The notes beneath the pieces were generated by a model that made no database searches, was not told the origin of the DNA, and worked only from the letters and a program-made list of their open reading frames with translations. Source: a virus. Taken from it: a stretch of 25,052 nt of DNA. The stretch lies in the IMG/VR virus record IMGVR_UViG_3300031758_000536, positions 1 through 25,052 of that record; one strand, given 5' to 3'. Shown one piece after another: positions 3,012-19,128 of the stretch (position 1 is the stretch's first letter; each line of letters begins with the position of its first letter). The position numbers and the translations under genes are program-made.

Positions 3012-3611
3012 TCAGAGCACCCGGTTGAGGGCGGCGAGAAGGGCGGCGTGGGCGGCTGGGGAGCAATCGTCTTTGCGGCCGGGCGCGACATCGGCGTGGC
3101 GGATGATGTTTGAGAGAGGAATGTGATATTCATCCAAGAGAGGAAGGAGGTATTCCACCGCGCTTAGGATGGCGTCGTCGCTGAGTGGGACTTGATAGGT
3201 GTCACCTTCCCACGCGAGGCCGATGCTGAAGGAGTTGGCGTCTTTGCGTCCTTGCCAGCTTGAGACGCCGGCGTGCCATGTGCGCTGGCTGGGCGTGGCG
3301 AGCACGGTTCGCTTGCCGTTTCTGGCGACGATGCAGTGGTAGCTGACTTTGCTAATCGGGTCGAGGCACCACGAGACCGATCCAGCATAAGCGCCAGAGG
3401 TGTGGTGGAGCACGATGTGCGTTGGTTTGATGACGCGGCCTGCCGAGACATTGGGTGTTTTCCGGTTGGTCTGCGGGTAGTAGCGGACGGGGGCAGATGC
3501 CGTCGGGGCCGCCGGCGTTCCTGCGGGCTTCGACTTCGCCGGTGCTGGTGCTGGCTCGGCGGGAGGCTGGGCCATGGGGAACATCCGGCGGAGGAAGTCG
3601 AGGAAGTTCAT
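3012..3611 (-). CDS. N-acetylmuramoyl-L-alanine amidase (endolysin)
   Basis: A 199-residue peptidoglycan hydrolase of the Amidase_2 (T7 lysozyme-like) family, cleaving between N-acetylmuramic acid and L-alanine at lysis. The N-terminal 45 residues hold a hydrophobic stretch (NFLDFLRRMFPM) and a Pro/Ala-rich linker. The catalytic domain follows: HIVLHHTSG with zinc ligand at H69/H70, YHCIVARNG, TWHAG, and RHADVAPGRKDDCSP with H172 and a third ligand at D182 or C183. The start ATG 3611 overlaps the stop of the lipoprotein gene by 3 bases, which is why a longer in-frame extension to 3710 is rejected. No separate wall-binding domain is seen. It sits with holin-like and spanin-like genes. Confidence 0.9.
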   Translation of the reverse strand: MNFLDFLRRMFPMAQPPAEPAPAPAKSKPAGTPAAPTASAPVRYYPQTNRKTPNVSAGRVIKPTHIVLHHTSGAYAGSVSWCLDPISKVSYHCIVARNGKRTVLATPSQRTWHAGVSSWQGRKDANSFSIGLAWEGDTYQVPLSDDAILSAVEYLLPLLDEYHIPLSNIIRHADVAPGRKDDCSPAAHAALLAALNRVL

Positions 3612-3784
3612 TTGTCTTTGAGGGTGCGGCTGGGGACTTCGGGGAGCTGGTAGGTGAAGCGGCCGTAGTCGGTCTCGAAACTGATGCCGACCGGACCAAG
3701 GGCTGAGCACCCGGTGAGAAGCGCGAGGCCGAGGAATAAGAACGCTAGGACAAAAATAAACAGCGCAATGCGAGGCGCGTTCAT
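3608..3784 (-). CDS. small lipoprotein, candidate outer-membrane spanin
   Basis: A 58-residue protein with a lipoprotein signal: MNAPR, a hydrophobic core (IALFIFVLAFLFLGLALL), then lipobox LLTGC with the lipidated Cys at residue 26. The mature part is only about 33 residues. Its start overlaps the holin-like gene stop and its stop overlaps the amidase start. Short lipoproteins inside lysis cassettes are typical of o-spanins (Rz1-like) of phages infecting Gram-negative hosts. However, the mature part has few prolines and it is not nested in an i-spanin gene, so another small lipoprotein role is possible. Confidence 0.65.
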   Translation of the reverse strand: MNAPRIALFIFVLAFLFLGLALLTGCSALGPVGISFETDYGRFTYQLPEVPSRTLKDK

Positions 3785-14342: not shown

Positions 14343-16811
14343 CTAGGCGAGGGCGTGGGTGGGGAGTTTATTGGAAAGCGTGGTCATCGTGGTTTTGATT
14401 TCGCCGAGCAAGCCTTTGAGATCGCCGAGGATTTTGGTGCCTTCGCCGGTGGTGATGGCGAGGTCGATGTTTTCCTTGAGCTTGCCTTTGATGGACTCGA
14501 TGGATTTCGAGGCGTCGAGGTTGAGGGTTTGCTGGGTAGAGCCGAGCTTAGTGATTTCGGCCTGGATATTTTGCAGGGAGTTCTTGCCGCCTTTTTCGTC
14601 AATCGGCTGAATGCCGGTGAGCTCGCCGCGCTTGCTGGCGATGTAGTCGAGGATTTGCTGCATCTGCTCGCTGCCGGTGGTGCCGAGGTTTTTAATGCCG
14701 AGCTCGCGGGCGATGTCGGGGAAGGATTTGTTTTTGAGGTCGGTGCCGATGTATTCGCCGAAGGCGGTGATTTCCTTGCGGGCATCGGCGGTCTTCTCTT
14801 TGAGGCTTTTCACGGGCGCGGAGGGATCCACGCCTTTGATGTAATCCAGCCAGGTGGCGAAGGACTTGGCGGCCTCGGCGGCTTTGCTGGCCTCGGCTTT
14901 GGCTTCGGAGACGGTCGTCTTGTCCACCTTCACGGCAGCGGCGGCGTTTTTGGCGTTGACGAAATTCGTGGCGAGGACTCCGGCTTCTTCTTTGGTGACG
15001 CCGAGGGTTTTCACATAGTCGTCGGTGAGCTTGGCGATCTCCTCGGTCGCCTTCTTGCGCTCAAGGTCTTTTTCGAGGGAGGCCACGAGTTCGGTGTTGC
15101 CTGCGGCTTTGGCAGCGTTTAGCTGGGTCTCGAGCTCGATGATGGCGGTCTTATTGGCTTTGGCTTCGGCGTCTGCGGCGGCTTGCTGGTCTTTGAGTGC
15201 TTGGCGTTTTTTAAGCTCGTCCTCGGTCTGCTTGGCTTGTGTCGCGCGCTCGGCGGTGGTGGCTGCGGTCGCGGCGGTGACTTGGCCCTCGAGTTCGGCA
15301 ACTTTGTTTTGCTGGGCGCCGAGGTCGGCGAAGAGAGGGGGGATTTTGGCGTAGTTCTCGGAGAAGGAATCCGGAAGGGCTTTGCCAGCGTTCACAAATT
15401 GCTCAGCGATGCGGCCGCCTGCGCCGGTCATGCTTTCCGAGATTTTGTCGGCAGCGCGCTTGGATTCTTCAGCAGCGGCGCGGAGATTGTCCGAGATGCC
15501 CTGCGTAAGCATGTTTCCCGATAGGGCGTCGGCGAGTTTGGATTGAATGGTCTCGGCGATGCGCGCTCCCAAAAGATTAAAGCCGTCCAAAACGGTCGAA
15601 ATGAGAGCGCCAGATGGCGAAAAAATTTCGGCGAGAAATTGACCGGCGGATTGAAAAGCGGCGATCAGTCTTTTGTAAATCTCATCGGCTGTCTGCATCG
15701 CCTGGAGTTTGAGGCTTTCCCAAAACACCTCGAAGGCGAGGCCGACTTGGCCGATGGAGATGGCATCCACCGCAGCTTGGAATCCTTTCATGGCGTCCTG
15801 CCCGCCGAGGAAGGCGTCGGCGAGGTTTTGGCCGATGGCGGCGGCGTCGATGCGCGAGAGGGCGCTGGTTATGGCGTCGATGGCAGGGAGTGCTTTGTCG
15901 AGGATGCCGGCGGCGAAGTCGCGGACCTTCTGCTGAATGATGAGAAAACGGTCGCCTACGGCGTCGAAGACATTGGCGCGGCGGTCCATGATGTCGGCCA
16001 TGGAGCCGACGGTGGCGCGGGCCTCGTTCATTTCGCCCGAGAAATTGGTGAGGAGCGGGAGGAGTTCCGCGCCGGATTTGCCGAAGACATCGATGGCGGT
16101 GGCGGCGCGTTTGCTGGGGTCTTGGATGCCGGAGATGCCGGAGGCGACGAGGGCAAGTTGCTCGGTGGGAGTCTTCCCTGCGAGTTCATCCATGGAGAGG
16201 CCCATGCGGCCAAAGGCGGCGACGGCTTCCTTGCTGCCTTCGCCTGCGCCGAAGATGTTGTTTTGGAGCTTGGCAATCGCGGGACCGACTTTGTCCGCAC
16301 CCGCGCCGGTATTGTCGAAGGCGCGCTGGAGAAGGAGGAGATTGCCGGCCGACTCGCCGGTGGAGGCGGATAGGTCGGAGAGGGTGCCGCCGAGGTCGAG
16401 GGCGTCGGTGAATCCTTGGATCGTGCCACGCACGGCGGCGAATCCGGCATCGAGCACGGCGGTGAAGGCTTTAGCGGCGAGTTGACCGACGCCGACAGCG
16501 GCGGCGAGTTTGCCGAAGCCAAGCCCGGCTTGGTCGCCCATTTTCTCGCTCTTGTCGCCCGCGCCTTTGATGTCTTTGCCGAGGGCGTCGACCTTCGGCG
16601 ATGCGGCTCCGGATTGGTCGCCCATGGCTTTGAGGCGTTTCTCCATGTTCTCGACCTGGCCGATGCGTTTCATCGTGGCCTCGAGTTCTTCCATGGAAAG
16701 CTCGCCGCTTTTGACCTTCCCCTGAAGGTTGCCCATCTCGCCTTGGATTTGCTGGAGGGCTTTCTCCAGCCCGACATCCTGTGCTCCGAATTCTACTGAG
16801 ACATCTGCCAT
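14343..16811 (-). CDS. tail tape measure protein
   Basis: An 822-residue protein, the longest in the window. It shows the tape-measure pattern: an N-terminal coiled coil (DVGLEKALQQIQGEMGNLQGK), a hydrophobic region (about 100-135, KLAAAVGVGQLAAKAF), the conserved-type core around DLSASTGESAGNLLLLQRAF and FGRMGLSMDELAGKTPTEQL, and a long Ala/Glu/Lys coiled-coil region (about 500-640, including a DELKKRQALKDQQAAADAEA segment). It sets tail length; at about 1.5 Angstrom per residue the tail would be near 120 nm (estimate). AGGAGG lies 12 bp before the start. It follows the 281-residue gene with a 4-bp gap. Confidence 0.9.
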   Translation of the reverse strand: MADVSVEFGAQDVGLEKALQQIQGEMGNLQGKVKSGELSMEELEATMKRIGQVENMEKRLKAMGDQSGAASPKVDALGKDIKGAGDKSEKMGDQAGLGFGKLAAAVGVGQLAAKAFTAVLDAGFAAVRGTIQGFTDALDLGGTLSDLSASTGESAGNLLLLQRAFDNTGAGADKVGPAIAKLQNNIFGAGEGSKEAVAAFGRMGLSMDELAGKTPTEQLALVASGISGIQDPSKRAATAIDVFGKSGAELLPLLTNFSGEMNEARATVGSMADIMDRRANVFDAVGDRFLIIQQKVRDFAAGILDKALPAIDAITSALSRIDAAAIGQNLADAFLGGQDAMKGFQAAVDAISIGQVGLAFEVFWESLKLQAMQTADEIYKRLIAAFQSAGQFLAEIFSPSGALISTVLDGFNLLGARIAETIQSKLADALSGNMLTQGISDNLRAAAEESKRAADKISESMTGAGGRIAEQFVNAGKALPDSFSENYAKIPPLFADLGAQQNKVAELEGQVTAATAATTAERATQAKQTEDELKKRQALKDQQAAADAEAKANKTAIIELETQLNAAKAAGNTELVASLEKDLERKKATEEIAKLTDDYVKTLGVTKEEAGVLATNFVNAKNAAAAVKVDKTTVSEAKAEASKAAEAAKSFATWLDYIKGVDPSAPVKSLKEKTADARKEITAFGEYIGTDLKNKSFPDIARELGIKNLGTTGSEQMQQILDYIASKRGELTGIQPIDEKGGKNSLQNIQAEITKLGSTQQTLNLDASKSIESIKGKLKENIDLAITTGEGTKILGDLKGLLGEIKTTMTTLSNKLPTHALA

Positions 16812-16815
16812 GGCT

Positions 16816-17661
16816 TTACGCGGCCTCCTGGAGTTTGGTGACTCGCTTTTTCAAGATCATCGCCATTTGCTTTTTCATTTTTTCAGCAACTACGGATTGC
16901 GCCATGAGTTTCTCGCTAATTGGCAAAACGCGGTCGGCGTATTTGCAGGTGTTTGTGAGGACAACTGTGGGGGCAAAAAGGTTTGCTGTTTTGTCTTGGA
17001 CATTTCCGAGCCCATAATCTCCGAGATGCCGGGTGACCCAGCCGGGGATGTCGCGTGTCATCGCTCCAGAAACTACTTTGCGGAGTTGGTTGGCGCAGTG
17101 CGCCCAGCCGGATTTGGCAATGCCGACTTTGGCATATTGGAGTTTTACGAAATCCTCTAGGGTTTGCTTTGGCACAAAGTATTTGTTGATGAATTTCCAG
17201 CGTCCGATGTTTTTTGTATCTCCTCCGGCAGCACTCATTTTCCCGTTAACAAAATTTGAGCGATGTATATTTATGAGGTCAGAAACATCTGCGCCTGGAA
17301 GAAAGTGGGCGCGGTCAACCCCGTAAACATCACCGCCTTTAGTAGCAAAAACAGAAATGTTGGCGCTGTCGTGGGTGTCGGCATAAGCCATTTGTCGCGG
17401 GGTGATGTGCGCGAATAATCCAGCGCGGCTTTTGCCTTTGCCGGTGCTTCGACGGCCTCCATAGATGTCGGTGGCGATCGCTTTCTCCCCAACTTTTTCC
17501 CCGCCTGTCTTGTTGCCGAACGGCTGCGTGCGGCGGGCCAACTCCACGCACAGAAGACGAGCATTCATGTGGACTGCGTCGGGGATCGTGGTTTCACGGA
17601 TCGTGGCGTAGTCCTTCATGATTTTCTCAAACTTGAGGTTGGTGAGTTTGAACTTGGGCAT
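16816..17661 (-). CDS. 281-residue tail-module protein between chaperone and tape measure
   Basis: An unrecognised protein of 281 residues. The N-terminal half is mixed (TNLKFEKIMKDYATIRET, HMNARLLCVELARRT); residues about 60-130 are rich in Gly/Arg/Asp turns (DIYGGRRSTGKGKSRAGLF, ITPRQMAY), and the C-terminus is basic and helical (KMKKQMAMILKKRVTKLQEA). It sits where the tape measure normally follows the chaperone directly, so its insertion there is unusual. The start shares one base with the stop of the frameshift product (TGATG). A minor tail or completion protein is most likely. Its N-terminus superficially resembles gp10/HK97 minor tail-type proteins. Confidence 0.6.
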   Translation of the reverse strand: MPKFKLTNLKFEKIMKDYATIRETTIPDAVHMNARLLCVELARRTQPFGNKTGGEKVGEKAIATDIYGGRRSTGKGKSRAGLFAHITPRQMAYADTHDSANISVFATKGGDVYGVDRAHFLPGADVSDLINIHRSNFVNGKMSAAGGDTKNIGRWKFINKYFVPKQTLEDFVKLQYAKVGIAKSGWAHCANQLRKVVSGAMTRDIPGWVTRHLGDYGLGNVQDKTANLFAPTVVLTNTCKYADRVLPISEKLMAQSVVAEKMKKQMAMILKKRVTKLQEAA

Positions 17662-18274
17662 CAGGTGATTTTTGCGAATGCGGCGTCTATGGCAGCGAGG
17701 GAGTCAAAATCCACCTTTCGGGAGTTTCGGGTCCAGGCGCGCTTGCGGCCGTGTGCGGCGTCGTCGGCGTGGATGATTTGGAGCCCTGCGGCGAAAGGGA
17801 GGTCTTCGAGGATTTCGCGGTAGCCCCAGCCGGTGGTCTTAGCGATGCGGTAAACATAGCCTGCGAGCCAGCCGGGGCCGTTTAGTTTCCCCCTGCGGAC
17901 TTTCCGCCGTGGGTCTCGGAGAAGCTGGCGAAGTATTCGTTCGTGCGCTCGAGGCAGAGCTTTTGGAGTTCGGCGATCTCGGAGGAGGTGGGGTTTTGTT
18001 TTTCCATCCAATCGTCCACGGCAGCAACGAAGCGGGCGTGGTCGTTTACGGTTGATCGGACCGAGGCTTTGGGTGCGCTGTGGATGAAGGCGAAGCCGCC
18101 GGATCGCCAGAGGATGTCCATGTCGGGGCTGAGGATTTTGTTGCGCTGCATCCAGGAGATTTCGAGCGCGGCGGTTGGTCGCATCTCCCAGCGGGAGAGT
18201 TTTTGCGGGCCGCTGGTCATGGCTTGCTCGCGCAGGGCTTCGTCGTCGGTCAGGAGGTCGTTGGTGTCTGTCAT
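17661..18274 (-). CDS. tail assembly chaperone, -1 frameshift product (gpGT-like)
   Basis: Shifting one base back at GGGAAAC (17885-17891) near the end of the 130-residue frame joins it to a 74-codon extension ending at 17661. That gives a 204-residue fusion, like lambda gpG-T. The extension LNGPGWLAGYVYRIAKTTGW then REILEDLPFAAGLQI is protein-like and closed by a stop coupled to the next gene. The extension has no start of its own between the shift site and its stop that would make sense as a gene. Such products carry tape measure protein to the tail tube and are not in the mature particle. Lambda's site is GGGAAAG. Confidence 0.8.
17823..17891 (-). other. programmed -1 ribosomal frameshift site
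   Basis: The minus-strand heptamer G GGA AAC (17885-17891) fits X XXY YYZ, with the zero-frame stop TAA immediately after. A short hairpin (GCGGA-AAG-TCCGC) lies just upstream. Downstream, GCCCCGGC (17871-17878) can pair with GCTGGGGC (17823-17830) through eight base pairs, a possible stimulatory stem. The pairing is by eye only. Confidence 0.75.
17882..18274 (-). CDS. tail assembly chaperone, short form (gpG-like)
   Basis: A 130-residue protein located between tail tube and tape measure, the standard place for the tail chaperone. It is mainly helical (TNDLLTDDEALREQAMTSG, TSSEIAELQKLCLERTNEYF) with a WMQRNKILSPDMDILW segment. It terminates at TAA directly after the slippery heptamer. The short form is the main product of such genes and acts with the frameshifted form during tail assembly. 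It is preceded by a C/A-rich leader with no Shine-Dalgarno site. Sequence similarity to named families is not evident; position plus shift site are the evidence. Confidence 0.78.
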   Translation of the reverse strand: MTDTNDLLTDDEALREQAMTSGPQKLSRWEMRPTAALEISWMQRNKILSPDMDILWRSGGFAFIHSAPKASVRSTVNDHARFVAAVDDWMEKQNPTSSEIAELQKLCLERTNEYFASFSETHGGKSAGGN

Positions 18275-18301
18275 GTGTTTGTCGTTTGGGTTGGTTGGTT
18301 A
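18275..18301 (-). promoter_or_regulatory. C/A-rich leader of the tail chaperone gene
   Basis: The minus-strand leader reads AACCAACCAACCCAAACGAC and ends ACACATG with no Shine-Dalgarno motif. It belongs to the recurrent CCAACC leader pattern before abundant structural genes. Confidence 0.4.
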
Positions 18302-18700
18302 GAGAAATTTGGCGAAGCGCTTCTTGTCTTCGTCGGTGGCGTTTTCGGAGATGCTCACGATCTTGCCGTTTCGCTCGAAAACGATCTGGCGGGGGATGGC
18401 TTTGATCGCGGTGAGGAGCTGGTCGCGGTTGCGCAGGGCGGCGATCATGTAGGACACGGGGGACTCTGGATTTTTTTCAATGAAATCCTCGCTGGCGAAG
18501 GCGCGCATGACTTCATCGGCTTGTTGGCCGGTGGTGGGGTGCGAGGCTTTGAAGTGGAAGACGGTGGACTCGTCGCCGCTCTCGCGCTTGATGCGAGTCG
18601 CGGGGGCTTTGTCGCTCTCGAACTCAAAGCCGAGGGCCGTGAGGATGCTGGCGAGCTTCAGGTCGCGCGTGTTGAAAATGGCGATATGTCGTGTGGTCAT
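18299..18700 (-). CDS. small tail-module protein of unknown family
   Basis: A 133-residue protein between the tail tube and the chaperone. It begins TTRHIAIFNTRDLKLASILTAL, with a charged middle (IKRESGDESTVFHFKAS) that looks like beta strands, and a helical second half (QQADEVMRAFASEDFIEKN, RNRDQLLTAIKAIP) ending KKRFAKFL. No motif identifies it. Given the position it may be a tail terminator partner, another chaperone or a non-virion regulator of tail assembly. Confidence 0.55.
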   Translation of the reverse strand: MTTRHIAIFNTRDLKLASILTALGFEFESDKAPATRIKRESGDESTVFHFKASHPTTGQQADEVMRAFASEDFIEKNPESPVSYMIAALRNRDQLLTAIKAIPRQIVFERNGKIVSISENATDEDKKRFAKFL

Positions 18701-18759: not shown

Positions 18760-19128
18760 TTAAGCGGCGGTCATCGCGGTGCCGTAGCTACGGAGCGTCG
18801 CGGAGACGGTCTCGAACTGCTCGGCCGCGAAGCTGGTTTCCAGCGAGGTGCAGATGGTCGTGCTGCCGAGGGAGGTTCCGGCGGGCATCGTGATCGAGGC
18901 GGTGCCGCCAACGGTCAGAGAAAAGCTGCCGGTGCGCATGCCTTCGACGCTGACCTCTTGGATCGGCTCGCCTACTGCCACCGCCACCACGCTACCCTGT
19001 GAGTCCTTAACTTCCTGAACATCGGCTGATTCCGAAATCGAAAAGCCGGTGACGATGAGGCCGGAAACTTCCGGTGTTCCATAAGTGGCCGAAGAGACGG
19101 CCGATGAGCGATAGATTGAAGCTGCCAT
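18760..19128 (-). CDS. major tail tube-like protein
   Basis: A 122-residue, mainly beta protein in the position of the major tail tube protein (after connectors, before the chaperone and tape measure). Features include IVTGFSISESADVQEVKDSQG, VGEPIQEVSVEGMRTGSFSL then a GTASITMPAGTSLGSTTICTS stretch, and a short helix. It is shorter than many tube proteins but fits small tube subunits. It has a C/A-rich leader and a very stable hairpin after the stop, both fitting high expression. Assignment is by position, size and secondary-structure look. Confidence 0.65.
   Translation of the reverse strand: MAASIYRSSAVSSATYGTPEVSGLIVTGFSISESADVQEVKDSQGSVVAVAVGEPIQEVSVEGMRTGSFSLTVGGTASITMPAGTSLGSTTICTSLETSFAAEQFETVSATLRSYGTAMTAA

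Follow-up and report, generated by a model that had tools for sequence, protein, structure and literature searches.

Within the window, that is, the whole stretch of DNA analysed here (25,052 bases of an IMG/VR virus record), a gene of 130 codons ends directly behind a heptanucleotide of the slippery type, and a second frame of 74 codons, displaced by -1, continues from the same point. The question raised by this locus is whether the two frames are joined by programmed -1 frameshifting, giving the short and fused forms of a tail assembly chaperone of the lambda G/GT type, as a preliminary description of the DNA had proposed. This proposal is very probably correct, and it is supported by the slip heptamer, by the evolution of the -1 frame as a protein, and by a tape-measure homologue, which occurs in 72 of 76 sequences and lies downstream in each of the 68 loci where 1500 nt or more are available.

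Layout of the locus and its relatives

The structural genes of the window all lie on the minus strand, in the order portal, capsid, putative tube, a gene of 133 codons, the G-like gene, the -1 frame, a gene of 281 codons and tape measure. The putative tail tube gene (18760..19128, minus strand, 122 codons) matches Pfam Phage_tail_2 at 15.9 bits (E 0.014), which is weak against the cut-off of 23.8, and is followed by the 133-codon gene (18299..18700, minus strand), which has no assigned function. The zero-frame gene, a candidate G-like tail assembly chaperone of 130 codons, occupies 17882..18274 on the minus strand and terminates as GCA GGG GGA AAC TAA AC, where the slip heptamer G GGA AAC (17885..17891) adjoins the stop TAA (17884-17882). 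Reading one base back yields GGG AAA CTA AAC GGC CCC GGC TGG and leads into the -1 frame (17661..17885, minus strand), a putative T-like domain, whose 74 codons run from CTA at 17885-17883 through 17664 and whose stop TGA (17663-17661) overlaps the ATG (17661-17659) of the next gene in the motif TGATG. The latter gene, of 281 codons (16816..17661, minus strand), is likewise without an assigned function, and it precedes the tape-measure protein gene (14343..16811, minus strand), which was recognized by PHROG tape-measure families (E 2e-7).

Every checked letter of the zero-frame ending in the preliminary description (minus strand, 18274-17882) is correct, and so are the length of the -1 frame and the coupling of its stop with the following gene. 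The interval that it assigned to the signal, 17823-18274, takes in the whole zero-frame gene and has its far limit precisely at the 3' arm of the stem discussed below, but the -1 frame itself runs on to 17661. Its placement of the pair between tube and tape measure holds as an order kept in relatives, although the 133-codon gene intervenes after the putative tube and the 281-codon gene before the tape measure.

In the remainder of the window, the translations of 344-1372 and 3012-3710 (both minus strand) are taken by us to resemble a tyrosine recombinase and an N-acetylmuramoyl-alanine amidase, respectively. Neither an Rfam match nor a tRNA gene was found in the window. Almost no Shine-Dalgarno-like sequence was seen at the 22 gene starts examined in the window, and the tape-measure start (16811) carries a strong one, AGGAGG.

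A scan with the zero-frame protein retrieved 35 viral contigs with homologues, and all 35 close relatives keep GGGAAAC and TAA, the two bases preceding the heptamer being GG, TC or GC. Remoter relatives were obtained from scans with alignments of the -1-frame protein, and from a single scan in which the zero-frame alignment was run against genome contigs; three of the -1-protein scans contributed the best 80 of 205, 211 and 208 relatives. The resulting 125 distinct sites comprise 120, from whose count one contig with the site at its end (L077, L142, L231) was excluded, and 5 further remote sites, which stand outside the tree and structure counts. The 76-row alignment and the structure counts exclude six remote sites (L186, L187, L188, L190, L192 and L194), and the tree of the 76 sites was built without the columns of the signal itself. 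One relative (L101) lies on a contig of a Verrucomicrobia MAG (G001), and among 213 genomes searched from the MAG's order, 12 gave a match. Neither window protein had a tblastn match in cultured phage records, and a literature search, judged by titles and abstracts, returned no paper treating this family or frameshifting in Verrucomicrobia phages.

The gene neighbourhood is largely shared by the relatives. A homologue of the putative tube, whose identity as a tube is weak, lies upstream in 71 of 76 sequences (71 of the 74 with at least 1200 nt), and a homologue of the 133-codon gene lies upstream of the site in 74 of 76. As far as these matches assign the genes, the order tube, chaperone, tape measure is kept in the family. 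The 281-codon gene has a homologue in 59 sequences; in 49 it lies downstream of the -1 frame, whereas in the other 10 the match is placed some 2.6 kb upstream of the site, and by comparison of these sequences the gene seems to have moved.

Slip site and adjoining stop

Among the 120 sites, the heptamer is GGGAAAC in 65, AAAAAAC in 18, GGGAAAG in 16, CCCAAAC in 10 and GGGGGAG in 10, and one site (L186) has none; the 5 further remote sites carry CCCAAAC (four) or GGGAAAC (one). The form XXXAAAC or XXXAAAG, with X being G, A or C, stands exactly at the phase that joins the two frames in 114 of the 125 distinct sites, the near-canonical GGGGGAG in 10 and neither in 1, which brings the sites with a slip heptamer in the joining phase to 124. 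Homologues that keep both frames while lacking the heptamer, against which the preliminary description had staked its reading, are almost absent, L186 being the sole site among the 125 without a recognisable heptamer. The three X bases switch together (GGG, AAA, CCC) among relatives, and such a change as a block, in a codon for Gly, Lys or Pro, is expected of tandem slippage and not of selection on the protein.

Two departures were recorded. A clade of ten sequences (L230, L235, L239, L242, L243, L250, L252, L255, L256 and L302) reads G GGG GAG TAG and is placed beside the GGGAAAG group; it departs from the X XXY YYZ rule and retains the stem and the adjacent stop, and a literature search on GGGGGAG frameshifting in tail genes gave nothing relevant. 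The remote homologue L186 (around position 1500) retains the -1 domain, but its junction lacks a recognisable slip heptamer; decay of a prophage, or use of another site, may be the reason.

The position of the zero-frame stop directly behind the slip site, which had been pointed out for the TAA of the window, recurs in 120 of the 125 distinct sites, where relatives have TAA, TAG or TGA. In four remote sites (L187, L189, L192 and L195), the stop follows one codon later, as CCCAAAC TCC TAG. On the tree of 76 sites, the heptamer changed at least six times and the identity of the stop at least seven times, with the arrangement never lost. As a chance control, X XXA AAN or X XXT TTN directly before a stop was counted in 5 of 1987 other frames (stop-to-stop, at least 100 codons, in 76 non-redundant sequences). 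The first codon of the -1 frame, which shares its letters with the stop, is CTA, CTG or GTA in 76 of 76 sites: the 58 leucines are written as CTA (53) or CTG (5) and all 18 valines as GTA, whereas elsewhere in the same genes only 8% of leucines are CTA, 17% are CTG, and 9% of valines are GTA, a bias that reflects the stop being kept. On the evidence of these alignments, the conserved stop directly behind the slip site, maintained through changes of both, is the feature that stands out.

This conservation raises a refinement of the frameshift proposal, in which the adjacent stop would be a working part of the signal: slippage would follow translocation, while the stop occupies the A site and the tRNAs the E and P sites, and the proportion of short to fused chaperone would be set by competition with the release factor. 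Such a role is conceivable and on balance rather unlikely. It would fit the retention of the stop through its repeated changes of identity, as well as the comparison with the stop of lambda, 15 nt behind the slip site, and with the mean distance of 26 nt that a prediction paper gives for its SEA-PHAGES training set (PMC10885494). As described in PMC4373837, experiments in E. coli with a stop placed behind the HIV slip site pointed to slippage while the A site already contains the stop; frameshifting was lost when the cognate release factor was raised. The same paper also reports that changing the natural stop of Rous sarcoma virus had no effect, which counts against the refinement. Further points on the opposing side are the sense codon TCC between heptamer and stop in the four remote sites and the consideration that selection for a short tail of G would yield the same pattern. 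Were the refinement true, this route would be seen most clearly in the GGGGGAG clade, where re-pairing of the second tRNA would be poor.

The -1 frame and the downstream stem

An open -1 frame of 70 codons or more is present in 75 of 76 sites, the remaining one (L100) being cut by its contig, and the zero frame, read past its stop, closes again within 70 codons in 71 of 76. Of the 465 differences that separate 16 relatives from the window in the -1 frame, 267 are at third codon positions. Judged by these substitutions, the -1 frame is under selection as a protein.

A protein under selection might also be produced by separate translation of the 74-codon frame, through reinitiation or an internal start, which would make the heptamer incidental. 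The window does have a TTG 42 codons upstream in the -1 frame, and gene overlaps in the cluster are tight, as illustrated by TGATG at 17661. However, ATG, GTG and TTG are absent from the -1 frame between the upstream stop and codon 9 in 41 of 76 sites and occur at scattered positions in the rest; the relatives do not share an open upstream part of the frame, its stops lying at varying distances; and the heptamer with its co-changing X bases would be left unexplained. Separate translation is consequently regarded as very improbable, and the frameshift proposal is retained.

With respect to the zero-frame product, an AlphaFold2 model of the G protein consists mostly of helices, with a mean pLDDT of 81.7. 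No PHROG or Pfam family names a chaperone for G or T, the matches being scattered, weak and of one or two members only, and the Pfam DUF6892 match to the window's proteins reaches 12.5 bits, under the cut-off. Fold searches with the G and T models returned no confident match to a solved fold, a result uninformative about the fold itself, and the best viral fold match of the G model is an uncharacterised protein (E 0.03). In L012 (2974-3384) and L230 (2582-2995), the N-termini of G are near-identical over about 25 residues in proteins that are otherwise divergent, and this sequence pattern suggests that the 5' end of the gene was exchanged by recombination.

The RNA 3' of the heptamer folds in the window into a long stem of -31 kcal/mol (z -2.4; 7 of 200 dinucleotide shuffles do equally well), whereas z is -0.95 for a longer stretch with the heptamer included. 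RNAalifold over the 76 sites recovers this downstream stem as well; it has 11 bp, 6 nt behind the heptamer, with the 5' arm GCCCCGGCUGG at 17868..17878 and the 3' arm CCGGCUGGGGC at 17823..17833 (minus strand), and this stem is present in the minimum free energy structure at 75 of 76 sites. Of all cells in the stem, 95.9% are paired, as compared with 24-62% when the partner is slid. Synonymous recodings were used as the control because both arms encode conserved Pro-Gly/Asn-Trp and Gly-Trp-Gly; on average 10.55 of 11 pairs are formed against 8.23 after recoding, with a mean energy z of -2.26, in a test that counts related sequences repeatedly, and the difference in pairs argues that pairing is kept beyond the need of the protein.

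Two-sided changes occur at three pairs, as GC to CG in 11 rows, GC to AU in 28 and CG to GC in 3, and the GC to CG change accompanies switches of Ser TCC/AGC and Gly GGG/GGC among close relatives. The 42 double-change cells exceed the 17.9 expected (0 of 500 shuffles as high), whereas the numbers of pairs and of pair types are unremarkable (equalled in 48 and 325 of 500 shuffles, respectively), and a sign test of co-changes on independent lineages falls short of significance (columns 14/69: 7 pairs, median p 0.22). Since the covariation is not significant on independent lineages, the case for the stem rests on the synonymous-recoding test. The downstream stem is presented as a putative stimulating structure, of a kind that is common but not universal in G/GT signals.

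Other RNA elements were considered as well. The preliminary description had envisaged stems on both sides of the slip site, of which the downstream one is supported and the upstream one is not: no consensus structure exists over the 76 sites and the energy z is 0.01 against codon shuffles, and the window clade has no more than a weak 4-bp stem there, although the upstream sequence of the window by itself folds at -12.9 kcal/mol. Pairing with the anti-Shine-Dalgarno sequence just upstream of the slip site averages -4.55 against -2.01 elsewhere in G; an internal Shine-Dalgarno stimulator is nevertheless unsupported, because the pairing follows from the residues encoded (mean z -0.22 against synonymous recodings, a median of 40% of which are at least as strong). 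AAC slips better when tRNA-Asn lacks queuosine. Loss of the queuosine enzyme in the putative host is not supported, as the MAG G001, which carries a close relative, has two Tgt-family genes (PF01702) by a search for the TGT domain alone. These two genes are separate, on contigs C57 and C60.

Transcriptional slippage on the run of G and A would give mixed mRNAs, and it might be entertained for the G5A3 of the window or the A6 of some relatives. Most sites, however, have G3A3 or C3A3 between other bases, which is established to be too short, and the second-codon pattern XXA AA(C/G) together with a stem 6 nt behind are features of ribosomal slippage, so that this explanation is credited with hardly any probability. 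Breakage of a single gene through sequencing error or through a natural -1 indel, as two adjacent frames that together make one protein might suggest, is practically negligible and refuted by the relatives, since 124 of 125 sites, drawn from many samples, show the identical frame change at one and the same position.

Proposed expression mode and known systems

According to the frameshift proposal, most ribosomes would stop at TAA and release the short form of 130 residues. A minority would slip by -1 on G GGA AAC, tRNA-Gly exchanging GGA for GGG and tRNA-Asn exchanging AAC for AAA, aided by the 11-bp stem, and would add 74 residues to give a fusion of about 204 residues that reads ...SAGG-N-LNGPGWLAGYVYR... 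across the junction. If both tRNAs decode the zero frame before the slip, the tryptic peptide SAGGNLNGPGWLAGYVYR would be expected; a shift before AAC would instead yield SAGGK and LNGPGWLAGYVYR. If the two forms act as in lambda, the short one would coat the tape-measure protein, and tube subunits would be recruited by the fusion.

The assignment to the G/GT type is drawn from position, size and arrangement together with the frameshift signal. The signal, its conservation, the stem and the protein evolution of the -1 frame were computed here; slippage itself, its rate and the chaperone function are inferred. As the second slip codon, AAC shifts poorly in E. coli in comparison with AAG (PMC5009743), and this is counted against the proposal along with the GGGGGAG clade, L186, the non-significant co-changes, and the absence of a match to a named chaperone family or a solved fold.

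Under the proposal, a known device for assembling tails would also operate in a phage family that has no cultured members and is present in at least one Verrucomicrobia MAG. The 125 sites constitute natural variants of one signal, with five slip sequences and three stops as well as a stem that differs among them and still pairs, and they would be beneficial as a test set for the function of XXAAAC on bacterial ribosomes and for the role of a stop directly behind the slip site.

The lambda G/GT pair and its conserved frameshift are textbook knowledge (PMC5009743). In lambda (NC_001416), an X XXY YYZ heptamer likewise stands near the 3' end of G, with the -1 frame T upstream of the tape-measure gene; the differences are that lambda has GGGAAAG, its stop lies 15 nt further on, and T and H have no gene between them, while the window has GGGAAAC and the stop at once. 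Slip sites of the XXXAAAC form (GGGAAAC/AAAAAAC) are described for tail chaperone pairs of the Caulobacter phages Colossus and phiCbK in PMC3556154, and GGGAAAC or AAAAAAC, with GGGAAAG in HCTV-5, for the haloarchaeal viruses HCTV-1, -2 and -5 in PMC5009743; in both groups, hosts and proteins differ from those considered here. A stop immediately behind the slip heptamer is also known from eukaryotic viruses, in genes that differ and are not tail chaperones.

The closest counterpart is the gp18/gp19 pair of Burkholderia phage KL1 (JF939047), for which the frameshift is likewise a prediction (PMC3483164). It has GGGAAAC, as confirmed in its sequence, directly before a stop (TGA in KL1) with a continuing -1 frame, a stable downstream RNA fold (z -3.4), and one gene between the pair and the tape measure. 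The -1 part of KL1 is longer, its RNA fold is placed differently, and the window proteins are without a tblastn match to those of cultured phages. Since KL1 has the same layout in detail, as published in PMC3483164, the layout of the window is not of a new kind.
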